64,000 bases of DNA from Actinomadura spongiicola (lineage in GTDB: Bacteria > Actinomycetota > Actinomycetes > Streptosporangiales > Streptosporangiaceae), in NCBI RefSeq assembly GCF_003432485.1, contig NZ_QVNQ01000003.1, forward strand, positions 744,001-808,000, given 5' to 3'. A program made the translations under genes and the position numbers. Below, piece after piece: positions 21,921-46,969 of this stretch; the stretch's first letter is position 1, and each line of letters begins with the position of its first letter. The notes beneath the pieces were generated by a model. That model did no database searches, was not told the DNA's origin, and saw only the letters and a program-made list of their open reading frames with translations.

Positions 21921-22993
21921 AGCGCCCCCAGTTTCCCAGATGGTGTTCATTGCAGCACACGTCATTCATGGCAGTGCACTCCTCCTTCGGGCCTGGGGGC
22001 CCTCCATCGTCGTGCACCGCGTGCGATCGCTGGCATCGCTCCGACTCGCCTAGCGGCTCGCTGCGCGATCAGGTTCTCGCTTCGCTCGATCCTGCCTTCG
22101 GACGCGATCGCAGGGGTCTAGGTCGTTGCGGGGTTGCGGAGGCGGGCTGAGGTCGTTGCGTCCGGACGCGCGGTCTCACTACCGCGCGCCCCTACCGGGC
22201 GCCTCCCTCACCCACGATTACCCAACAACCACACACCACACCCGCCTACGGGGCGACACAAGCGCCCACCGCACCCCAACCGTCGCGAACACGGCCTGAA
22301 ACTCACGAGACCCTACCCCGCAGCGAGCCGACGGCCGGACATCTACGCGCACCCGACGACGCCCTTAATCGTCGGCGACCGCGTCCATAGGTGCCGACCC
22401 AAGTTCGCGGGGACGTGACGGCGCAGCGAGCCGAGTCGAAGCCAGTGGTCAAGCGGCGACCCGCCACCGGCTGAGGTGACGCCCCCAACTCCGCGAAGGT
22501 GCGGAAGGCAAGCTCTTCCGACGACAACGTGATCGTGCGGTGAGCGGGAACAACTCCAGCGGCCAGGCACATGTGCCGGTACCAGCGGACGCGACGACAC
22601 CAGCCCACGCCCCAACAGACCAGCCAGCACGGCTCCGCCCGCAGATACAGGCCTCAAGTCCGCGAGACCTAATCGCGCAACAATCCGCAGCACAAATCGG
22701 CCATCGGGCCGACGCCCACCGACTACCCCCACCACGCGAAACCTGAACGCACAGCGAGCCGCAGCAACGTCAGCGATCGAACGCACGTGCCGCGACCAAC
22801 GGACGCGACGGGCCCAGCCCGCCCCCCGACCCCGCAACAACACCAACCATTGCGATCGCGTCCGAAGGCAGGTTCGAGCTCGCGAGAACCTGATCGCGCA
22901 GCGAGCCGCCAGGCGAGACGGAGCGATGCCAGCGATCGCACGTATTTCTCGACGATGGAGGGCCTCCAGGCCCGAAGGAGGAGAGAAATACAA
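21921..22993. other. Gene-free interval between ftsY and the divIVA-like gene, made of repeat copies
   Basis: About 1.07 kb with no convincing gene. Repeat copy A lies at its left end and copy B, inverted, at its right end. The middle (about 22160-22800) holds decayed pieces of the same vocabulary (GCAGCGAGCCG, ATGTGCCGGTACCAGCGGACGCG) that appear more than once. Open frames here are side effects of the repeats. Confidence 0.6.
21940..22152 (+). repeat. Dispersed hairpin repeat, copy A
   Basis: Single unit in plus orientation. Order of parts: TTCATTGCAG-like head, CTCCTCCTTCGGGCC, GGGGGCCCTCCATCGTCGTG, first GCGATCGC, GGCTCGCTGCGCGATCAGG, hairpin arms CAGGTTC.../CCTG, second GCGATCGC, then TTGCGGGGTTGCGGAGGCG ending GGGCTGAGG. 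The head faces the ftsY start codon. Family described in the findings. Confidence 0.85.
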
Positions 22994-22996
22994 TCA
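22815..22996 (-). repeat. Dispersed hairpin repeat, copy B
   Basis: Unit in minus orientation; its head merges with the TGA stop of the divIVA-like gene (22994-22996), reading TGATTGTATTTCTCTCCTCC. Both GCGATCGC octamers are kept. The central arms are CAGGTTC and GAACCTG with loop bases that differ from other copies, so the stem is conserved while the loop varies. Confidence 0.85.
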
Positions 22997-23659
22997 ACGC
23001 GGCAGAGAGGCGCGTTCGGAGGCTTCCCATTCGTCGACGTTGCGGAGGAGTGCTTCTAGGTAGGAGCGGAGGTGGGTGCGGTAGACGTCGCTGTAGGTGC
23101 GCAGGTAGGCGACTTCGCGCTCCAGCTCCAGGGTGTGCCGTTCGGTGTCCGGTAGGCCGCCCTGGTGGGGGACGGGGCGTGCGGTCTGTTCGGTGGCGCG
23201 GACGGCCGTGTCGGCGACGGCGGCGGCCTTGCGGTGGGCGTCCTCCAGGATGTGTTCGGCGCGTCCTTTGGCGTCGGACAGGATCGCTTCGCGGTGCAGG
23301 CGGGCCTCGTGGGAGAGTTCGCGGGTGTAGCGCTCGGCGTCGGCGACGTACATGTCGGCGGTCTGTTGGGCCTGCGACAGGATCCGGACGGCTTGGAAGT
23401 GGGCGTCTTCGGGTGCCATGACGTTGGACGCGCCTTTGGCGCCTTGGGAGCGCAGCCGGTTGACCTCGTCGGCGAGGGCGGCTCGTTCGCTGAGGAGTTG
23501 GACGAACTCCCGTTCGACGTAGGTCAGGAAGTTGCGGACCTGTTCCTCGTCGAACCCGCGGCGGCCGAGGGCGGCCCTGGCGAACGCGACCGACTGGAGT
23601 TCGCCGGGCGTGAGCCGCCGGGTTCCCTCGGAGGCGGCGGGAAGGTCAGGAGAGTTCAT
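22994..23659 (-). CDS. DivIVA-like coiled-coil protein
   Basis: 221-residue soluble protein with an N-terminal DivIVA-like segment (LTPGELQSVAFARAALGRRG, then FDEEQVRNFLTYVEREFVQL) and a long heptad-rich coiled coil. It resembles the actinobacterial DivIVA/Wag31-like proteins often annotated as cellulose-binding. It could form a polar or membrane scaffold. The start is the ATG at 23659 with GAGGTGA seven bases upstream. It lies five bases after the flavohaemoglobin stop, so it is almost certainly cotranscribed with the globins. A link between scaffold and globin function is inference. Confidence 0.75.
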   Translation of the reverse strand: MNSPDLPAASEGTRRLTPGELQSVAFARAALGRRGFDEEQVRNFLTYVEREFVQLLSERAALADEVNRLRSQGAKGASNVMAPEDAHFQAVRILSQAQQTADMYVADAERYTRELSHEARLHREAILSDAKGRAEHILEDAHRKAAAVADTAVRATEQTARPVPHQGGLPDTERHTLELEREVAYLRTYSDVYRTHLRSYLEALLRNVDEWEASERASLPR

Positions 23660-23664
23660 CGCGC

Positions 23665-24867
23665 TCACCTCTGGGCATCTGCGAAGGTTTCCAACCGGAT
23701 GTGCTCGCGCGGCACACCGAGCTGCACGAGCTGCTCGACCGTGTGCCCGACCATAGCCGACGGCCCGCATACATAGGCGTCGTGATCGTTCCAAGGGCCG
23801 TGTCTGGCCACGACGTCGGACAGATTGCCGTATTCGACGTCGCCGTCGGTCCGCGGCACCGGCTCGAACCAGCTGCCCGGGCGCCGTACGGAGCCGGGTC
23901 CCGCCTGGAGGAGGGCGGAGAAGCCGTGTCCGCCGACTTCCTCGGACACGGCGGGGACGACCGTGAACCACTCGAACTCGCTGGCGAGTTTGCTGAGGGA
24001 TTCGAGGTCGTACAGCCCGTCGCGGGTGCGGGCGCCGAAGAACAGGTGGACGCGGGGCGGGGAGGGCCGACCGGCGATCTGTTCCAGGATGGCCTTGAGC
24101 GGGGCGAGTCCGGTGCTGCCCGCGACGAGGAGGACGTCCCGCTGGGAGGTCTCGTCGAGGGTGAGCGTGCCGACGGGGGCTCCCATCCTGATGCGGTCAC
24201 CGGTTTCGGTGGTGCGTACCAAAACGGGGCTGACCGGGCCACCGTCCACGAGTCGGACGTGGAAGTCGATGGTGTGGTCGGGGCGCGGCGCGTTCGCCAT
24301 CGAGTAGTACCGCCAGAGACGCGGGCGGGCCATCGTTTCGACGGCGACGGACTGGCCGGGCTGGTAGGGCAGCGGCCGGTCCGGTTGGACGCGCAGGACG
24401 GTGATGTCGAATCGGCGCCGTTCGACCGCGATGACCTGGCCGTCCCACCAGGCGGGGCGGGTGAGGGCGTCCTCGTCGGCCGCTTCGAGCATGACCTTCG
24501 CGACGAGGGTGTAGGCGGCCGTCCAGTCGCCTTCGATGTCATCGTTCCAGGCCGGGCCGGAGAAGTGCCGGAGGGTGGCGATGAGGCTTGCTCCGACGTG
24601 CGGGTAGTGCTCGGCGATGATCCCGAACCTGCGGTGGTCGCGGCCCAACTGCTGGAGGAACGGGACGAGTGTGCCGAGGTCGTCGACCCGGGCAACGATC
24701 TGGCCGAGCGCGCGCAGCAGCTTGTCGCGCTGGATGCTCATCCCGATCGGGAACATGTCGCGCAGGTGGGGGTTGCGCACGAACAGATCGGAATAGAAGA
24801 ACAGCGCGACCGCGTCGCCCTGCTCGGCGACGTGCGCGAAGTTGTCCTTGAGGCGCTGTACGTCCAC
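23665..24867 (-). CDS. Flavohaemoglobin (globin-FAD/NAD oxidoreductase)
   Basis: Probable nitric oxide dioxygenase or related haem reductase. The globin domain (about 1-130) has B10 Tyr25 in FFYSDLF, proximal His78 in GRDHRRFG and the family Tyr88 in AEHYPHVG. The reductase part has the FAD motif RLWRYYSMANAP (R..YS, near 184-195) and the NAD loop AGSTGLAPLK (249-258), ending in LETFAD. At 400 residues it equals Hmp. Starts six bases after the upstream single-domain globin stop. The globin domain is about half identical to that neighbour. Confidence 0.88.
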   Translation of the reverse strand: MDVQRLKDNFAHVAEQGDAVALFFYSDLFVRNPHLRDMFPIGMSIQRDKLLRALGQIVARVDDLGTLVPFLQQLGRDHRRFGIIAEHYPHVGASLIATLRHFSGPAWNDDIEGDWTAAYTLVAKVMLEAADEDALTRPAWWDGQVIAVERRRFDITVLRVQPDRPLPYQPGQSVAVETMARPRLWRYYSMANAPRPDHTIDFHVRLVDGGPVSPVLVRTTETGDRIRMGAPVGTLTLDETSQRDVLLVAGSTGLAPLKAILEQIAGRPSPPRVHLFFGARTRDGLYDLESLSKLASEFEWFTVVPAVSEEVGGHGFSALLQAGPGSVRRPGSWFEPVPRTDGDVEYGNLSDVVARHGPWNDHDAYVCGPSAMVGHTVEQLVQLGVPREHIRLETFADAQR

Positions 24868-24873
24868 GTCGGC

Positions 24874-25281
24874 TCAGGAGACGAGTTCCGCGGCGGCCCC
24901 GTTCATGACACTGGCGACGAGGCCGTAGGCCGCCCGCCAGTCACGTTCGAGGTCCTCGTTCCATTCGGTGCCGCTGAAGTAGGCCAGGGTCGCGACGAGG
25001 CTGGCTCCAACGGGGACGTAGTGCTCGCCGAGTACTCCGAAGCGGTGGTGCCGCCTTCCGAGGTCCTCCAGGTACGGGATGAGCGTGTCGGGATCGTCGA
25101 CGGACGACACGATCTTGGAGAGCGCCCCGAGCAGGACCTCGTGCTGCCTGCTCATCCCCGCGGGGAACATCGACCTCAGCCCCGGCTCGGTCGCGAAAAG
25201 GTCGGCGTAGAAATATTCAGCGACGTCCACGCCGTTCGCGGCCACCAAGGTAAAATTCTCTTTAAGTTTTCGCGCGTCCAT
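24874..25281 (-). CDS. Single-domain globin related to the flavohaemoglobin head
   Basis: 135-residue globin aligning end to end with residues 1-132 of the next gene: MDARKLKENF versus MDVQRLKDNF, and FGVLGEHYVPVGASLVATL versus FGIIAEHYPHVGASLIATL. It keeps B10 Tyr25 and the proximal His78 (RRHHRFG). Likely a tandem duplicate that acts as an oxygen or NO binder, perhaps reduced by its flavin-containing partner. The ATG at 25281 has GGAAGGTGG upstream; longer frames lack a ribosome site. First gene of globin-flavohaemoglobin-divIVA-like. Confidence 0.85.
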   Translation of the reverse strand: MDARKLKENFTLVAANGVDVAEYFYADLFATEPGLRSMFPAGMSRQHEVLLGALSKIVSSVDDPDTLIPYLEDLGRRHHRFGVLGEHYVPVGASLVATLAYFSGTEWNEDLERDWRAAYGLVASVMNGAAAELVS

Positions 25282-25576
25282 GGGCACCACCTTCCAGGGG
25301 ATCTCCGTATCGGGCGGGGCGCCGGGAAGGGGAGCCGGAGATCCACGGTGCATATGCGTAGTGGATGGGTGCGGAAGGCACAAGCCCGTCAGCGTCGCCG
25401 GTCCGTCACGTTCAGTCGATGAACAACCCGGCTACCGGCACAAATGCCACCGACGCCAAACCGTTATAGGACATAAAAATCAGGCCGGCGCACCTCGAAT
25501 ACGGAACGCCGTTCGATGTACCGATCCAACAAAGAGTGATAGACATTACAACTTTCTAAAATCGACACGTGAGGTA
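25282..25576 (-). promoter_or_regulatory. AT-richer leader/promoter region of the globin operon
   Basis: The 130 bases around 25440-25570 are markedly poorer in GC than the rest of the window, as often seen for regulated promoters or acquired DNA. On the minus strand TATAAC (near 25470) is a possible -10. A palindrome GAACG-C-CGTTC (about 25506-25516) could be an operator. I could not assign an NsrR or other known site. The remainder up to the ATG shows only the ribosome site. Confidence 0.35.
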
Positions 25577-26120
25577 GTGGACGACCGCTAGGCGCACCCC
25601 CCCAACCGTCGCGATCGCTCCCGAGGGCCCCGCCGGGACTTGAGCCCGAGCGAAGCGCTACCGACGCCCGCACCGCGCTTCACGCCAACGAAGACCCGCC
25701 AGCCCAAGGCAGGAAGCACCACCCCCCTCCGTGCACTCCAACCTCAGCCCACCTCCGCACCCCCCAACAACCTGGGCCCCTGCGATCGCGTCCGAAGGCA
25801 GGTTCAAGCGAAGCGAGAACCTGATCGCGCAGCGAGCCGCCAGGCGAGCCAAAGCGATGCAGCGATCGCCCGTGGTGTCACGACGATGGGGGCCCTTCAG
25901 GGGCGATGGGGGGCATTGACGCGTCCCCACGGCCCTCAGCCCGCCTCCGTAACCCCGCGACAACCTGGGCCCCTGCGATCGCGTCCGAAGGCAGGTTCAA
26001 GCGAAGCGAGAACCTGATCGCGCAGCGAGCCGCCAGGCGAGCCAAAGCGATGCAGCGATCGCCCGTGGTGTCACGACGATGGAGGGCCGCCAGGCCCGAA
26101 GGAGGAGTGAACTGCAATCA
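25577..26120 (-). repeat. Dispersed hairpin repeat, tandem array C (two good units plus a decayed third)
   Basis: Minus orientation. The head of the first unit merges with the smc stop codon (TGA at 26120-26118, reading TGATTGCAGTTCACTCCTCC). Two units are spaced exactly 192 bp (matching words start at 25771 and 25963) and appear identical over about 120 bases, including both GCGATCGC octamers and the arms CAGGTTC/GAACCTG. A third, decayed unit reaches back to about 25577, near the globin promoter. Confidence 0.9.
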
Positions 26121-29100
26121 AGCACGCAGCCGTTGGCTGACTACCTGGGTGACGCCGTCGCCGCGCATGCTGACGCCGTAGAGGGCGTCGGCGCCTTCCA
26201 TGGTGCGCTTCTGGTGGGTGATCACGATGAGCTGGGACGATTCGCGCAGTTCCTCGAAGACGGTGATGAGCCGTTGGGTGTTGGTGTCGTCCAGGGCGGC
26301 CTCGACCTCGTCCAGGACGTAGAACGGCGACGGGCGGGCCTTGAAGACGGCAACGAGGAACGCGATCGCGACGAGGGAGCGTTCACCGCCCGACAGGAGC
26401 GACAGCCGTTTGACCTTCTTGCCGGGTGGGCGGGCGGCGACGTCGACGCCGGTGGTGAGCATGTCGCCGGGTTCGGTGAGTGAGAGGCTTCCCTCGCCGC
26501 CGGGGAAGAGGCGGGCGAAAATGCGTTCGAATTCGCGGGCGGTGTCCTCGTAGGCGGCGGCGAAGACCTGCTGAACTCGGTCGTCCACCTCTTTGACGAG
26601 GCCGAGGAGTTCCCGCTGGGTCTTCTTCAGGTCTTCGAGCTGTGAGGTGAGGAAGGCGTGCCGTTCTTCCAGTGCCGCAAACTCCTCCAGTGCCAGCGGA
26701 TTGACTTTGCCGAGCTGGTTGAGCTGCCGTTCCGCCACTTTCGCGCGCTTTTCTTGAACGGCTCGGTCGTAGGGGACGGGCTGCGCGTCCTCCCCATTGT
26801 CGGCGTCGGGCGGGACGGGCTGGTCGGGCCCGTATTCCGACACCAGGGACTCGACTTCCAGGCCGAACTCGTCCAGGGCCCGCTGTTCCAGCTGTTCCAG
26901 GCGAAGCCGCTGCTCGGCGCGGGCGACCTCGTTGCCGTGGACGACGTTGACGAGCCGTTCGAGGGTGGCGGACAGTTCCCGCACCTGTGTCCGGACGACC
27001 TTCAGTTCCGCTTCGCGGGCGGCCTTGGCCTGTTCGGCGGCCTCGCGTCGCCGCACGGCCGCGTCCAGGGAGTGGTCGATGCGTGCCAGGGCCGTCCTGG
27101 CGCCCCTGAGGACGGCGTCGGCGACCCGGGCCTGTTCTTCGCGGCGGGCGCGGCGCCGTGCGGCGCGGGCCCGTTCCTCGCGTTCCCGTCGCGCGCCGCG
27201 TTCGAGCGCGTCGGCGCGGCCCGCGATGGCCTGGACGCGTTCCTCCGCGGTGCGGACCGTCAGCCGCGCCTCCATCTCGACGGCCCGCAGTTCCTGGCAG
27301 CGGGCGTTCAACTCGTCGCGGGCCTCGGTGTCGTGCCCGGCCTCGTCGGCGACCTCCGCGGCCTCCTCCGCCTCGGCGAGCCGCATCGCGAGTTCCTCGG
27401 CCGCCTCCGTGTCGCGCTCCACGGACTCGTTGGCCGCGTCCAGCGCCTTCGTCAGCCGTTCCGCTTCGCCGCGGGCGGCGCGGACGTCGGCCTCCAGACG
27501 CGCGGCACGCTTCGCCTCCTGCGCGGCCTGCGCCTCGAACTCGCGCAGGCGAGCGCGGACGCGGTCCAACTCCGCCTGGGCCTGGTTAACGCTCGACTGC
27601 GCTTCGGAGGCCGCGGCTTCGGCCGCCTCGACCGCTGCCTGCGCGGACTGCTCGCGCTCCAGGCGGGCCGTGAGGTCCTCGGCGGCCGCGCCCGCCGCCG
27701 TCTCGGCGGCCGCGAGGTCCTCGGTGGCCTCGTCGAGGGTCGCGCGCATCCGCAGGAGACTCTGACCGCCGTCGGCCCCGCCTCCCTGCGCCCAGTGCGC
27801 GCCGACGAGTTCCCCGTCGCGGGTGACGGCCCGTAGCGACGGCCGGCCCCGCACAATCGCGGCGGCGGACGGAACGTCGTCGACCACGGCCACATCGCGC
27901 AGTAGATGCTCCACGGCCGGACGCAACGTATCCGGCACATGCACCGCGTCGACCGCGTAGTCGACGCCCGGGACGCGGTCCCACGACACGGTCGCCCCGC
28001 CGCCGACGAGCAGCCCCGCACGTCCCGCGTCACGGGAACGCAGCAGGGTCAGCGCCGCCTCGGCCGTGTCGAGCGAACCCACGGCGATCGCCTCCGCGGC
28101 GTTGCCGAGGGCCGCGGCGACCGCGGTCTCGTATCCGGGACGGACGTTCAGCATCGACGCGACCGTCCCGACAACGCCGTCGAGCGAACCGTCGGACCCC
28201 GCCGCCAGCAGGGCCTCCCCGCCATCCGCGGCGCTGGCCAACGTCAGGTTGAGCGCCTCGATCCGCGCCTGCAACGCCGTGACCCGCTTCTGCGCCGCCT
28301 GATCGGCCGAACGGGCCGACGCCACCGCCGACCGGGCCTCCTTCAACGCGCGGCGCGGACCGTCCACCGCGGCGCGCGCCGCCTCCGCCGCGTCCTTCGC
28401 CACGGCGAGCGCCTCCTGGACCGTCTCATGCTCCGCCGCGAGCACCGGATCCTCCACGACCTCCGCATCGAACGCCTCGAACTCCGCCCGAGCCGACTCC
28501 GCCCGCTGCGCGGCCTCCTCCCGCGCGTCGGCGAGCCGCCCGATCTCCGACCGTCCCGCCTGCGCCTTGCTCCGCAACGCCTCCACCCGCCCGCGCAGCC
28601 GCGCCAACTCCTCACGGCGATCCGCCGCGGCCCGCGCCGCCGCCTGCAACCGGCGCTCCTCCGCCGCCAGCGCGTCCTCCGCCCCCGACCGCTCCTCGAC
28701 GGCCCTGGACAGCCCGTCCTGTGCCTCCTCCAACGCCGCCCGCAGCATCTCCTCCTGCTCGCGGACCTCCGCGGCCTCACGCTCCATGTCCTCCGGATCG
28801 CGGCCCCGCCGCTCCTCCGCCCGCGCCTCACTCGCGTTCCGATGCCGCTCCGCCGCGAGATCCGCGACACCGCGCAGCCGCTCCTTCAACGCCGACAACC
28901 GGAACCACGTGTCCTGAACCTGCGCGAGCCTCGGCGCCTGCTCGGCCTCCTCCGCCTCCAACAGGCCCTCGCGCCCCTGCGCCTCCGCCAGCGCCCGCTC
29001 CGTCTCCGCGCGCCGCTCCCGCACCGCCGCCTCGTCCGCGGCCTCCTGCTCCAACCTCGTCCGCAACGTGACCAGATCGTCCGCCAACAACCGCAGCCGC

Positions 29101-29774
29101 GCGTCCCGCAGATCGGCCTGAATCACGGCCGCCTTCCGCGCGATCTCCGCCTGCCTCCCCAGCGGCTTCAACTGGCGCCGCAGCTCACCGGTCAGATCCT
29201 GCACCCGCGTCAGGTTCCCCTGCATCGCGTCCAGCTTCCGGAGCGCCTTCTCCTTCCGCTTCCGATGCTTGAGAACACCCGCCGCCTCCTCGATCACCGC
29301 GCGGCGCCCCTCCGGCCCCGAATGCAGGACGCGATCCAACTGCCCCTGCCCGATGATCACGTGCATCTCGCGGCCGATGCCCGAATCCGACAACAACTCC
29401 TGAATGTCCAACAGCCGACACGAATCCCCGTTGATCGCGTACTCGCTGGACCCCGACCGGAACATCAACCGGCTGATCGTGACCTCGGTGTAGTCGATCG
29501 GCAGCGCCCCGTCCGAATTGTCGATCGTCAACACGACCTCGGCGCGGCCCAACGGCGCCCGACTCGCCGTCCCGGCGAAGATGACATCCTCCATCTTGCC
29601 GCCACGCAACGACTTCGCGCCCTGCTCCCCCATCACCCAGGCCAACGCGTCCACCACGTTCGACTTGCCCGACCCGTTCGGCCCCACCACCGCCGTGATC
29701 CCCGGCTCGAACTTCAACGTCGTCGACGACGCGAAGGACTTGAAGCCGCGCAACGTCAGATTCTTCAGATACAC
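26118..29774 (-). CDS. smc: Chromosome segregation protein SMC
   Basis: ATPase core of the condensin-like SMC-ScpAB complex that compacts and segregates the chromosome. Walker A is GPNGSGKS (31-38), followed by VDALAWVMGEQGAKSLRGGK. Two long coiled coils flank a hinge around residues 510-680 (DGVVGTVASMLNVRPGYETA). The C-terminal signature is LSLLSGGERSLVAIAFLVAV with Walker B FYVLDEVEAALDD. I place the start at GTG 29774 (VYLKNLTLRGFKSF, the usual N-terminus) because GGAGGGGG precedes it; GTG 29795 adds seven residues. 1218 residues. Confidence 0.96.
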   Translation of the reverse strand: MYLKNLTLRGFKSFASSTTLKFEPGITAVVGPNGSGKSNVVDALAWVMGEQGAKSLRGGKMEDVIFAGTASRAPLGRAEVVLTIDNSDGALPIDYTEVTISRLMFRSGSSEYAINGDSCRLLDIQELLSDSGIGREMHVIIGQGQLDRVLHSGPEGRRAVIEEAAGVLKHRKRKEKALRKLDAMQGNLTRVQDLTGELRRQLKPLGRQAEIARKAAVIQADLRDARLRLLADDLVTLRTRLEQEAADEAAVRERRAETERALAEAQGREGLLEAEEAEQAPRLAQVQDTWFRLSALKERLRGVADLAAERHRNASEARAEERRGRDPEDMEREAAEVREQEEMLRAALEEAQDGLSRAVEERSGAEDALAAEERRLQAAARAAADRREELARLRGRVEALRSKAQAGRSEIGRLADAREEAAQRAESARAEFEAFDAEVVEDPVLAAEHETVQEALAVAKDAAEAARAAVDGPRRALKEARSAVASARSADQAAQKRVTALQARIEALNLTLASAADGGEALLAAGSDGSLDGVVGTVASMLNVRPGYETAVAAALGNAAEAIAVGSLDTAEAALTLLRSRDAGRAGLLVGGGATVSWDRVPGVDYAVDAVHVPDTLRPAVEHLLRDVAVVDDVPSAAAIVRGRPSLRAVTRDGELVGAHWAQGGGADGGQSLLRMRATLDEATEDLAAAETAAGAAAEDLTARLEREQSAQAAVEAAEAAASEAQSSVNQAQAELDRVRARLREFEAQAAQEAKRAARLEADVRAARGEAERLTKALDAANESVERDTEAAEELAMRLAEAEEAAEVADEAGHDTEARDELNARCQELRAVEMEARLTVRTAEERVQAIAGRADALERGARREREERARAARRRARREEQARVADAVLRGARTALARIDHSLDAAVRRREAAEQAKAAREAELKVVRTQVRELSATLERLVNVVHGNEVARAEQRLRLEQLEQRALDEFGLEVESLVSEYGPDQPVPPDADNGEDAQPVPYDRAVQEKRAKVAERQLNQLGKVNPLALEEFAALEERHAFLTSQLEDLKKTQRELLGLVKEVDDRVQQVFAAAYEDTAREFERIFARLFPGGEGSLSLTEPGDMLTTGVDVAARPPGKKVKRLSLLSGGERSLVAIAFLVAVFKARPSPFYVLDEVEAALDDTNTQRLITVFEELRESSQLIVITHQKRTMEGADALYGVSMRGDGVTQVVSQRLRA

Positions 29775-29830
29775 GCGCTCCCCGTCCCCCTCCACGACCG
29801 GCCGACAACATCCGTCGGAACGATACTGTG

Positions 29831-30550
29831 TTTATTGCAGATCACTCCTCCTTCGGGCCTGGCGGCCCTCCATCGTCGTGAACTGCGGTGCGATCGCTGG
29901 CATCGCTCCGGCTCGCCTAGCGGCTCGCTGCGCGATCAGGTTCTCGCTTCGCTTGAACCTGCCTTCGGACGCGATCGCAGTGGCCCAGGTTGTCGCGGGG
30001 TTGCGGAGGCGGGGCTGAGGGCCGTGGGGACGTGTCAGAGCACTCCTTCATCGGCCCTGCCGGGCCCCCAGCGTCATGCACCGCGGGCGATCACTGGCAT
30101 CCGCTTCGGCTCGCCTTGCGGCTCGCTGCGCGATCAGGTTCTCGCTTCGCTCGCACCTGCCTTCGGACGCGATCGCAGTGGCCCAGGCTGTCGCGGGGTT
30201 ACGGAGGCGGGCTGAGGGCCATGGGGACGCGTCAGAGCACTCCTCCATCCGTCCTGCCGGGCCCCAGCGTCGTGAACTGCGGTGCGATCACTGGCATCCG
30301 CTCCGACTCGCCTTGCGGCTCGCTGCGCGATCAGGTTCTCGCTTCGCTTGAACCTGCCTTCGGACGCGATCGCAGTGGCCCAGGTTGTCGCGGGATTACG
30401 GAGGCGGGCTGAGGGCCGTGGGGACGTGTCAGAGCACTCCCCCTTCGGCCCTGACCGGCCTTTGACGTCGGGCACCACGGGCGATCACTGGCATCCGCTT
30501 CGGGCGCGATCGCAGGGGTCGAGGTTGTTGCGGGGTTGCGGAGGTGCGCT
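29831..30550 (+). repeat. Dispersed hairpin repeat, tandem array D (three full units plus a deleted fourth)
   Basis: Plus orientation, head TTATTGCAG at 29831 facing the smc start. Unit landmarks CGATCAGG occur at 29933, 30131 and 30328, so the period is 197-198 bp. Units 1-3 have the arms CAGGTTC/GAACCTG or variants and a right-hand GCGATCGC; the left octamer is intact in unit 1 and has become GCGATCAC in units 2 and 3. Unit 4 (about 30429-30545) lacks the internal hairpin segment and joins CATCCGCTTCGG directly to GCGCGATCGC. Confidence 0.9.
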
Positions 30551-30958
30551 CCGGGCTCGACCTGGTGGGTCTTACGTCGAGGAGTGCGGTGCGATCGTTG
30601 GCGTCGCTTCGTTGGAGTTGCCATTGGGGGCGATCGCGGGTTTGGCGTTCGGGGGATTGGCAGGGGGCGAAGCCGGTGGGGGGACGCGCCAAAACTTGGG
30701 GAGGTTTGACCTAATTTTTGCGGTGTGGGTTGCGGGGTTGGGGAAATGGCGGATGTCCCCGGTTGGGGTATTTCGTGGGGGCGTGACGATTTGGTCGGGT
30801 CACGCGCAGGCGACCGCGGCGCCGGGGCTACGGAGACCGTGGCTGCGGCGAGAGGATCGCCTGCGTCGTGACGGGGGCCAGGGGGTCGTTCCCCTGGGGG
30901 AATGCGTTAGGGACGCCAGATGGCGGCGTCCCTGTCCACTCTGAGAATGAGGCGCCGA
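30551..30958. other. Gene-free G-rich interval after array D
   Basis: Begins with a strongly decayed repeat unit (GTGCGATCGTTGGCGTCGC around 30590) and continues as a segment with repeated GGGG runs on the plus strand (about 30650-30800), including GGGGTTGGGG. A-T content rises locally around 30700-30725. No gene, tRNA or clear terminator seen. Quadruplex formation is possible but the loops are mostly long. Confidence 0.45.
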
Positions 30959-31156
30959 TCAGGTCAGCGCCGGTTCACGGTCCTTCACCGCGAGCGACAT
31001 CACATCGTCGTCTGCCGCCGTCGCCAGCGCGTCGTTCTCCGCCTGGAGCCGTACGAGCTCGGCTTCCAGATCACGTACGCGCTGCTGAAGGCGCCGCATC
31101 TCCGCGACCATCCGGGGGTCGGGACCGCCGACGTGGCCGAGTAGAGCCTTCGCCAT
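30959..31156 (-). CDS. Small conserved actinobacterial coiled-coil protein
   Basis: 65-residue protein starting MAKALLGHVGGPDPRMVAEM, then a leucine-heptad helix (RRLQQRVRDLEAELVRLQAE). I recognise the GHVGGPD start as recurring in actinobacteria near acyP/smc, but the function is unknown to me. The ATG at 31156 has a GGAGGACCC ribosome site; the longer frame upstream lacks one. A TTGACC sequence on the minus strand (31263-31258) might be its -35 element. Probably dimeric. Confidence 0.75.
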   Translation of the reverse strand: MAKALLGHVGGPDPRMVAEMRRLQQRVRDLEAELVRLQAENDALATAADDDVMSLAVKDREPALT

Positions 31157-31335
31157 GACTAAGGGTCCTCCACGCTGAGTAACCAGCAGGGATCGCGCAC
31201 GAGAAACCGCTGAAGTTCGGTGCGCGTATCGTCTAGAGTCGCACCGGCCGGTGTCCTGGTCAAGCCGCACATCACAGGCCGGTAACAACCTTCCAGCTCT
31301 AGTTTAGCAGGTGTAAACCAGGACTCCCTACCCCA

Positions 31336-31623
31336 TCAGCGTTCCTGGAAACCGTCGGCCTCGCCGCGGGGTTCGCTCCAGCGTTCGACGACGCCCGTGA
31401 CCGTGCCGGGACGGGGTGGCCCGGCGGCGTCGCCGTTCAGGAGGGCGAGGAGTCGGTGGCACTTGTCCCGGGGCCCCTCGGCGACGACCTCGACGCGTCC
31501 GTCGGCCAGGTTGGTGGCGCTGCCGGCGAGCCCGAGCTCCAGGGCGCGGGCCCGTACCCACCAGCGAAAACCGACGCCCTGGACATGGCCGCGCACCCAG
31601 ACCGTCAGCCGTACCGTATCCAT
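31336..31623 (-). CDS. acyP: Acylphosphatase
   Basis: Hydrolyses acyl phosphates. The 95-residue protein has the family motif [18 protein letters not shown], with the catalytic Arg of the GVGFR loop, and [15 protein letters not shown] with the catalytic Asn. Normal length. It lies between mutM and the small coiled-coil gene, as in many actinobacteria where acyP neighbours smc. Confidence 0.93.
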
Positions 31624-31685
31624 CTCTCCCCAATCCGGTCATCGGCGCTCCAGGGCCCGTTTCGACGTGACCTCAGCCCGCGCCG

Positions 31686-31827
31686 AACGCGTTACCCGCC
31701 CGGTGCAGCGAAGCCGAAGGCGAGCGGAGCCGGGCGGATCGCGAAGCGATGTCGCGTTCGCCCCAGGAACGGTCACGCAGCGAGCCGCCAGGCGAGCGAA
31801 GTGGGCCGTTCCTGCAATAAATACAGC
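31686..31827 (-). repeat. Related hairpin repeat E, after mutM
   Basis: Begins just past the mutM stop (31828-31830); on the minus strand the head is TGTATTTATTGCAG, as in array D. Arms CAGGAACGG and CCGTTCCTG enclose CCACTTCGCTCGCCTGGCGG, a piece shared with the main family. A second stem GCCCGG/CCGGGC follows. It lacks the GCGATCGC pair, so it is a sister type rather than a full copy. May also act as the mutM terminator. Confidence 0.65.
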
Positions 31828-32718
31828 CTAGTAGCGTGCCCGGCGGGGGCGTGGCTGGCATACGGGGCAACTGTAGGACGAACGGTTCATGAACTCGTCG
31901 CGGCGGATGGGTGTGCCGCAGCGGCGGCATGGTTCGTCCCGGCGGCCGTAGGCGTCGAGGGAGCGTTCGAAGTAGCCGCTCTCGCCGTTCACGTTGACGT
32001 AGAGGCTGTCGAAGCTCGTGCCGCCGACCGCGAGGGCGGCGGACATGACCTCGCGTGCGGCCTCCAGGACGCGTGCCGCCTCCGCCCGTGTCAGCGTCTC
32101 GGTCGGACGGGCCCAGTGCAGCCGGGCCCGCCACAGCGCCTCGTCGGCGTAGATGTTGCCGACGCCGCTGATCAGTGACTGGTCGAGCAGGGCCCGTTTG
32201 ATCCCGGTCCGGCGGCGGCGGAGGGCGCGGAAGAACGCCTCCGCGTCGAAGGCGTCCTCCAGCGGGTCGGCGGCGATGTGCAGGATCGGTTCCGGGACGA
32301 GCCCGCCGTCGACCTTGTCCGGTGCCAGGTCGGTGACCATGAGGTGGCCGAAGGTCCGCTGGTCGACGAAGCGCAGGTCGAAGCCGCCGTCGGCGAAGAC
32401 GATCCGGACCCGGAGGTGCTTCTCGGGGGCCCGGTCGGGCTCGCCGACGAGCAGTTGCCCGCTCATGCCGAGGTGGGTGAGGAGTGCCTCCTCCGGCGGT
32501 CCGCCGCCGGAGGAGGCCAGGGGCAGCCACAGGTACTTGCCGCGGCGGCGCGGGGCGAGGACGGTGCGGCCGGCGAGGCGGCCGGCGAAGTCGGCGGGGC
32601 CGGCCTCGTGGCGGCGCACCGCTCTCGGGTGCAGGACCTCGGCGGAGGCGATGGGGCGGTTCGTGGTGAAGCGGTCCAGGCCGCGGCGGACGACCTCGAC
32701 CTCGGGCAGCTCAGGCAC
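31828..32718 (-). CDS. mutM: Formamidopyrimidine-DNA glycosylase
   Basis: Base-excision repair enzyme for 8-oxoguanine. After the initiator, the catalytic Pro begins [13 protein letters not shown]. The middle contains [10 protein letters not shown] and [20 protein letters not shown]-terminal zinc finger has CRRC...CPVC ([20 protein letters not shown]). The start is the GTG at 32718, overlapping the end of rnc by eight bases, and gives the family N-terminus directly; the longer frame would block the catalytic Pro. 296 residues. Confidence 0.95.
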
Positions 32719-46818: not shown

Positions 46819-46891
46819 TACCTCCGGAGGGATTCGAACCCCCAGCGCACAGCACCTCATGCTGCCGTCTCTGCCGTTGGACTACGGAGGC
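46819..46891 (-). tRNA. tRNA with anticodon GAG (Leu), atypical class I
   Basis: 73 nt. The acceptor GCCTCCG pairs with CGGAGGT, with G1-U72 at the end. The D arm is GTC-CAACGGCAGA-GAC; the anticodon arm GCAGC-ATGAGGT-GCTGT gives GAG (leucine, CUC). The variable loop is only five bases (GCGCT) and the T arm is GGGGG-TTCGAAT-CCCTC. Bacterial tRNA-Leu is class II with a long variable arm, so this is not an ordinary tRNA-Leu. A73. Five bases separate it from the upstream tRNA, implying one transcript. Confidence 0.75.
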
Positions 46892-46896
46892 GTGCG

Positions 46897-46969
46897 TACG
46901 GCTCCCGGGATTCGAACCCGGAACATCCACTTCCTGAAAGTGGCCTCTCTGCCATTGGAGTAGAGCCGC
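46897..46969 (-). tRNA. tRNA with anticodon CAG (Leu), atypical class I
   Basis: 73 nt. The acceptor GCGGCTC pairs with GAGCCGT, again with G1-U72. The D arm CTC-CAATGGCAGA-GAG closely resembles that of its neighbour; the anticodon arm CCACT-TTCAGGA-AGTGG gives CAG (leucine, CUG). The short variable loop is ATGTT, the T arm CCGGG-TTCGAAT-CCCGG, discriminator A. T8 and A9 are normal. With the GAG tRNA it forms a related pair lacking the long variable arm. Identity of the attached amino acid cannot be told from sequence. Confidence 0.75.

Follow-up and report, generated by a model that had tools for sequence, protein, structure and literature searches.

A folded interspersed repeat of about 200 bases was found in a 64,000-nucleotide stretch of the Actinomadura spongiicola genome (assembly GCF_003432485.1, contig NZ_QVNQ01000003.1, positions 744,001 to 808,000 of the forward strand), referred to here as the window. 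Seven full copies are recognised in the window by a covariance model of the family, with scores of 117-173 bits, alongside three weaker matches of 24-27 bits, one of them a sister type (Table 1). The initial annotation of this DNA, made from the sequence alone, had proposed a dispersed hairpin repeat in at least seven good copies, and these results bear it out. A conserved fold of the repeat is strongly supported. The family is considered rather probably to be a non-autonomous mobile repeat, specific to Actinomadura, with a conserved RNA-like single-strand fold. The case for a mobile element is built on the many dispersed copies, the differences in presence and absence between related genomes and the fixed edge at the head of the element.

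The repeat is classed here as a new family among the folded interspersed repeats of bacteria, the three-way junction and the docking at stop codons being its unusual features. Actinomadura, whose members include antibiotic producers and mycetoma agents, gains a well-supported folded repeat family within the Actinobacteria. The family is a case of a small repeat taking over gene 3′ ends, and offers a tractable system for studying the spread of elements without a recognised transposase.

Anatomy and conserved fold

The anatomy is given in the direction of the initial annotation. Each unit consists of a CTGTGTTTATT head, the hairpin HP1, a first octamer, the hairpins HP3 and HP4, a small TTCG loop, a second octamer and a tail. 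A unit spans about 200 bases, beginning with CTGTGTTTATT and ending near GGCTGAGGTYGTYGCG, where the tail edge is only approximate. The fixed order of parts is as originally described in the window copies, while the original unit length of 170-198 bp is corrected to about 200 bases. A decayed unit previously placed near 25577-25742 gave no covariance-model match; an octamer stands at 25611. The octamer is GCGATCGC, and its two occurrences are the arms of one stem (S2) which closes a three-way junction. The outer arms of HP1 range from GCAGTTCAC/GTGAACTGC to GTATTTCTC/GAGAAATAC and GCTTTTTTC/GAAAAAAGC.

Co-variation was assessed over 33 pairs in 98 of 120 dereplicated units. Because the register of the inner HP1 stem differs between two sub-types, this stem was excluded from the pair test. 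The compensatory changes that the initial annotation had proposed to look for were found, with 16 of the 33 pairs changing on both sides. These comprise all nine pairs of the HP1 outer stem, two of eight in the octamer stem, four of seven in HP4 and the small-loop pair, with none of eight in HP3. Of the cells tested, 96.4% pair; the shuffled copies reach 88.7%, and sliding the partners lowers the figure to 26-40%. Double-changed cells number 232 against 64.6 in shuffles, and covariation reaches 0.199 against 0.067. None of 500 shuffles reaches any of the five measures, a figure not readable as a probability because the copies are related. Within the octamer stem, six of the 98 copies read GCGATTGC...GCAATCGC instead of the GCGATCGC pair. 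Among 228 of 237 units the 5′ arm of the HP1 inner stem occurs in 26 different forms, each with its exact partner; some of these pairings perhaps arise by chance. Copy B (unit 2) has a changed loop and retains its hairpin arms, as had been noted. The maintained structure first suggested by this copy is now supported by co-variation and folding scores, and is extended by the octamer stem that closes the junction.

The octamer GCGATCGC is also the HIP1 sequence of cyanobacteria. The likeness is restricted to the octamer itself, which in the Actinomadura repeat is a co-varying stem arm. It occurs 25 times in the window, 15 of these in repeats; the ten outside compare with a Markov expectation of approximately 7-9 for the whole window, and there is no enrichment outside repeats in the window. 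Kinship with HIP1, raised in the initial annotation, was rejected on these grounds.

The two strands differ in their capacity to fold. For the reference copy (unit 5), energy minimisation of the minus strand yields the three-way junction, and the folding z is -2.48 for this strand and -0.25 for the plus strand. Over 237 distinct units the z is -3.34 for minus and -1.47 for plus, and minus is the lower in 231 of the 237. The folding score of the minus strand may be improved by its purine-rich internal loops. An A.C mismatch on one strand is a G.U pair on the other. Among distinct arm combinations, which remove the kinship of copies only in part, A.C outnumbers G.T by 33:6 in HP1 and 8:4 in HP4 (p 1.4e-5 for HP1 and 1.5e-5 for HP1 and HP4 together). 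By folding z and wobble pairs, the structured strand is probably the one opposite to that read initially. As a separate observation, the minus strand of the HP1 internal loop (e.g. 29846-29877) carries GA on both sides beside the inner stem, with the look of a kink-turn or tandem G.A, an idea only.

The case for an RNA form comes from this strand asymmetry. One explanation of this kind is an element similar to the short interspersed nuclear elements, whose mobile form would be a structured RNA running from tail to head, with its 3′ end (HP1 plus AAUAAACAG) placed at stop codons and terminators. Such an element would explain why the strands are asymmetric, why the head end is fixed, why pieces that keep the head stop at helix ends and why terminal inverted repeats are missing; it is nevertheless held to be quite unlikely.

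Distribution and relation to known repeats

A search of the 7.7 Mb genome to which the window belongs (G000) with a single copy gave at least 59 matches at E≤0.001, a lower bound as 40 of 106 candidate places were scored. Three relatives gave at least 77, 52 and 54 matches with 40 candidate places scored in each, and 46 of 60 Actinomadura genomes, G000 included, are carriers. The family thus extends beyond the window, which had been named as a point to check. A family-wide scan with the covariance model, using strict filters and 25 candidates scored per genome, gave matches in three of 120 genomes and one of 68 genera, all three being among the four genomes listed for Actinomadura. A 22-letter core pattern searched over named genomes was found in at least 110 stretches, and the 80 titles among the matches listed are all Actinomadura or Spirillospora albida. 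The short pattern also occurs in two viral contigs, both of them without a full unit, and one gives a weak match of 15 bits. All finds of the repeat family to date are from Actinomadura, with Spirillospora albida counted in this genus.

The absence of a described family matching the repeat, as initially stated, holds for the sources covered, insertion sequence (IS) databases being outside this scope. Rfam gave no match to the repeats at gathering scores and none of note up to E 5. The best-ranked results of the open-licence literature, with subscription papers mostly outside the scope, included no paper on this Actinomadura repeat family.

Several known repeats show similarities. The mycobacterial interspersed repetitive unit (MIRU) of Mycobacterium is an actinobacterial intergenic repeat tied to stop-codon sites. 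The bcr1 repeat of the Bacillus cereus group is described as an intergenic element of approximately 150-170 bases confined to one species group, with a conserved fold and similar to a miniature inverted-repeat transposable element (MITE) (PMC2267715, PMC3446304). By this description, the Actinomadura repeat resembles bcr1 in size, intergenic place, restricted host group and fold. It is unlike bcr1 in its three-way junction, its stop-codon docking and the absence of a terminal inverted repeat (one copy). The best match between its 12-mer ends is 8/12, which 174 of 200 shuffles equal, so that the terminal inverted repeats of a MITE are not seen in this copy. In pneumococcus, BOX is described as a modular folded repeat with detected RNA and SPRITE as a terminator-like repeat enriched near gene 3′ ends (PMC3049150). 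According to the same paper BOX and RUP have terminal inverted repeats and target site duplications, while SPRITE has a tract rich in U; no such feature was seen in the Actinomadura repeat.

The repetitive extragenic palindromic (REP) sequences and bacterial interspersed mosaic elements (BIMEs) likewise form many palindromic intergenic copies and arrays. REPs are 20-40 bp long with GTAG/CGTC tags in a survey (PMC3733652), the main text of which has no occurrence of ‘actino’ or ‘streptomyces’. A REP/BIME system with a REP-associated tyrosine transposase (RAYT) was rejected as the class of the Actinomadura repeat: the unit is about 200 bases with several hairpins (GTAG/CGTC tags being outside the scan) and its own genome has no Y1 (RAYT) gene. 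Clustered regularly interspaced short palindromic repeats (CRISPR) were also rejected, as the units are dispersed or near head-to-tail with no spacer pattern by eye.

Placement at the 3′ ends of genes

Gene positions for the placement counts were taken from a simple home-made caller, by which small genes are missed. Units lying more than half inside a called gene were 0/40 in the own genome, 0/36 in the relative G043 and 5/143 in other Actinomadura, compared to 76% of random placements in the window; the copies are mostly intergenic, a bias that the initial annotation had proposed to test for. Gaps between two gene starts hold 1/40 own units, 0/36 in G043 and 7/120 elsewhere where both neighbours were called. 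The head faces a stop codon in 134 of 217 distinct units, with the start of HP1 at most 15 bases from the stop in 60 of these. The tail of the same units faces a stop in 137, with the tail end, itself approximate, within 15 bases in 18 (p 9e-9 for head against tail). The 77 stop codons within reach of the head are TGA (32), TAG (23) and TAA (22), and several sit inside the T-rich head, such as those of smc and of a DivIVA-domain gene in the window. Between tandem gene pairs there is no consistent orientation, the head following the stop in 57 and the tail in 60. Some copies come after a terminator-like hairpin (loci L094 and L086), and one follows an apparent tRNA 3′ end (locus L073), both judged by eye and the latter without a tRNA finder.

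These placements bear on the alternative that the repeat is a host-used 3′-end element, a portable terminator or mRNA-end module selected for ending or protecting transcripts. The heads directly on stop codons and the avoidance of divergent gaps favour it, as does the composition of the HP1 arms. In 134 distinct type-1 units the mean AT content of the nine outer-arm positions is 5.15 near stops, 2.78 within arrays and 3.90 elsewhere (p 9.5e-7 for near-stop units against the rest), the arms being picked by pattern with a few misplaced. A strong hairpin base a few bases past the stop would hinder the ribosome, which is one possible reason for AT-rich arms. The 53 type-2 units speak against this alternative, as little of the effect is seen in their arms (means of 2.47 near stops and of 2.00 and 1.81 elsewhere). 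The structured strand is, moreover, the antisense of the gene whose stop is touched. An intrinsic terminator is not seen by eye in the window copies, which have no U-tract after HP1; T-rich sequence precedes HP1 on the plus strand and A-rich sequence follows it on the minus strand.

A comparison of 21 genomes at the smc locus provides evidence on both sides. A small open reading frame (ORF) by smc (window 30959-31156, minus strand) has a terminator-like hairpin, GGGACGCC..GGCGTCCC, on its 3′ side in 16 of the 21 loci by pattern search. The element stands on the stop codon of this ORF in five genomes, exactly those lacking the hairpin, as a host module would suggest. The encoded protein still ends in REPALT in the five, or REPVLT in G059, and in G055, also one of the five, a short piece precedes the element. 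Conversely, G006 holds the element on the same stop with the terminator kept behind it, and in G002 the element lies right after the terminator. The five terminator-less genomes may share one ancestral event, which counts against reading them as separate cases. Stems also still break in place, with 63 pair-breaking changes against 13 compensated in the comparison described below. A host-used module is on balance judged unlikely, and the repeat may have a role in ending transcripts.

Under the preferred reading of a mobile repeat, copies would be inserted in trans by an enzyme recognising the head/HP1 end. A gene would tolerate such an insertion, head first, at its 3′ end because the T-rich head readily gives TGA, TAA or TAG and the hairpin can then serve as the transcript end. 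The fold would be kept mainly because copies must fold for mobilisation, and only weakly for a local host function.

Spread, decay and the search for a mobilising enzyme

Presence and absence differ between related genomes, as seen by eye in the same 21. The gap after smc holds an element in five. In six, a head stands at one and the same ..ATAC site of the gap before smc, and elements elsewhere in this gap occur in at least G002, G006, G007 and G041. The gap after mutM holds the sister element in two. This sister type has the same head (TTTATTGCAGG) and tail (GGGCTGAGGT) with a different interior, in a layout similar by eye; three further sister matches occur among the own-genome loci examined, two of them adjacent. 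The head edge falls between CCCTACG and CTGTGTTCATTGC at a site that is occupied by a unit in G000 and by 2.9 kb of different DNA in G043.

Synteny with G043 gave a flank match for 31 of 40 own units, of which 23 have an aligned partner, a few array units being of doubtful orthology. Stems differ at 6.4% of positions and loops at 11.1% in these 23, with 13 compensated double changes against 63 changes on one side only that disrupt a pair in one of the genomes; these figures indicate that some constraint acts on the units where they stand, alongside much decay. At one orthologous site (L277:5040-5470 vs L098:4100-4420) HP1 is an imperfect hairpin in G000 and a perfect 24-bp palindrome in G043, from which it follows that hairpin-templated repair probably acts on HP1. 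Other perfect HP1 palindromes occur in L082, L188 and L221.

Arrays extend head to tail. A total of 398 pieces comprises 257 full units, 55 head-only, 55 tail-only and 31 middle pieces. The head-only pieces run directly into another unit in 32 of 55 cases, mostly between C and TG before TGTTTATT, and 7 of 55 tail-only pieces come after another unit. These junctions fit CTG slippage as well as the insertion of short copies. In the array upstream of smc in a related genome (locus L110), a run of N lies inside a long repeat array and is perhaps an assembly gap.

Both the perfect palindromes and the head-only junctions, which suggest hairpin slippage, speak for a REP/BIME-like DNA palindrome that works as a cruciform or hairpin, its arms matched by hairpin-templated repair and not by selection on RNA. 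This is quite unlikely, as the octamer pair co-varies across approximately 73 bases of junction (6/98), beyond simple fold-back copying, and the strand asymmetry is unexpected for cruciforms. The 20-40 bp palindromes given for GTAG/CGTC-tagged REPs (PMC3733652) also differ from the Actinomadura unit.

A further alternative is an IS200/IS605-type element with a hairpin end and a TTNAT target, driven by a Y1 transposase. The heads TTGAT, TTTAT and TTCAT lie beside a hairpin and resemble TTGAT-type targets. No TnpA or TnpB relative sharing ends with the repeat was found. The own genome has neither Y1_Tnp nor TnpB, Y1 is not associated with carriers, and 20 Y1 loci gave only matches of approximately 16-35 bases to the repeat, with no unit in the nine of them searched with the covariance model. 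This origin is regarded as highly improbable. Membership of the HEARO (IscB RNA) class was rejected, the Rfam model giving no match at gathering score or at E≤5; the four IscB loci had no Rfam match either, so that there is no positive control. Among the loci examined, no gene was flanked by head and tail pieces. The reverse transcriptase (RT) domain has one own-genome match (44.8 bits) and occurs in 19/46 carriers against 4/14 non-carriers (p 0.53). At p<0.05 neither RT, Y1 nor IscB is associated with carriers.

A number of results weigh against a mobile repeat with a conserved single-strand fold. Y1_Tnp (PF01797) has no match in G000 and is present in 16 of the 60 genus genomes without a link to the repeats (13/46 carriers vs 3/14 non-carriers, p 0.74). 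The TnpB zinc-ribbon is absent from the own genome, relatives being outside this search. The IscB N-domain is also absent there; it occurs in 9/46 carriers and 0/14 non-carriers (p 0.10), all nine genomes with a match being carriers. Repeat units were absent beside the four IscB, nine of 20 Y1 and four RT loci given to the covariance model. Neither a clean empty site with both edges nor a target duplication was obtained, the head edge being seen and the tail edge blurred. Many copies are old, as the copies before smc are common to several species at one site. With regard to the fold, HP3 hardly varies and is of little information, and hairpin-templated repair may be the source of some co-variation. 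The wobble asymmetry is not uniform, with five G.T against one A.C in S2 and two against none in HP3. All helices as first aligned, including the misregistered inner HP1 stem, give 59 A.C against 52 G.T; the inner stem alone gives 32 G.T against one A.C, opposite to the HP1 outer stem and HP4, and is read as a misregister of the sub-types.

Table 1. Repeat units and parts of the reference copy in the window (bit scores from the family covariance model)
Feature	Positions	Strand	Remarks
Unit 1 core	21963..22116	+	166.1 bits; tail to about 22160
Decayed unit	22370..22517	-	24.2 bits, E 0.00017
Unit 2 core (copy B)	22847..22999	-	173.3 bits; head holds TGA stop of DivIVA-domain gene 22994-23668 (-)
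Unit 3 core, second in array	25777..25922	-	124.7 bits; T-rich head replaced
Unit 4 core	25970..26123	-	155.9 bits; head holds TGA stop (26118-26120) of smc (26118-29795, -)
Unit 5 core, reference copy	29829..29983	+	171.4 bits; upstream of smc
T-rich head, reference copy	29829..29836	+	element probably begins 3 bases further left, at CTG
Hairpin HP1, reference copy	29837..29886	+	outer arms 29837-29845 / 29878-29886; inner stem GGGCC/GGCCC
Stem S2 5′ arm, first octamer	29890..29897	+	co-variation helix 2
Hairpin HP3 of three-way junction	29902..29936	+	co-variation helices 3 and 4, no both-side changes
Hairpin HP4 (CAGGTTC/GAACCTG) of three-way junction	29937..29961	+	co-variation helix 5, 4/7 pairs changed on both sides
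Stem S2 3′ arm, second octamer	29971..29978	+	co-variation analysis
Tail, reference copy	29979..30028	+	end approximate
Unit 6 core, array-internal	30027..30181	+	117.4 bits; T-rich head lost
Unit 7 core, array-internal	30224..30378	+	117.9 bits; T-rich head lost
Deleted unit	30421..30518	+	26.9 bits
Sister-type element	31661..31835 (hand-cut range)	-	26.2 bits at 31708-31822; directly after mutM stop codon

Between the repeats on the smc side and those on the DivIVA side, at 23665-25287, stand two adjacent globin-domain genes, of which one has FAD/NAD reductase domains. A pair of neighbouring tRNA genes is located on the minus strand at 46819-46969.

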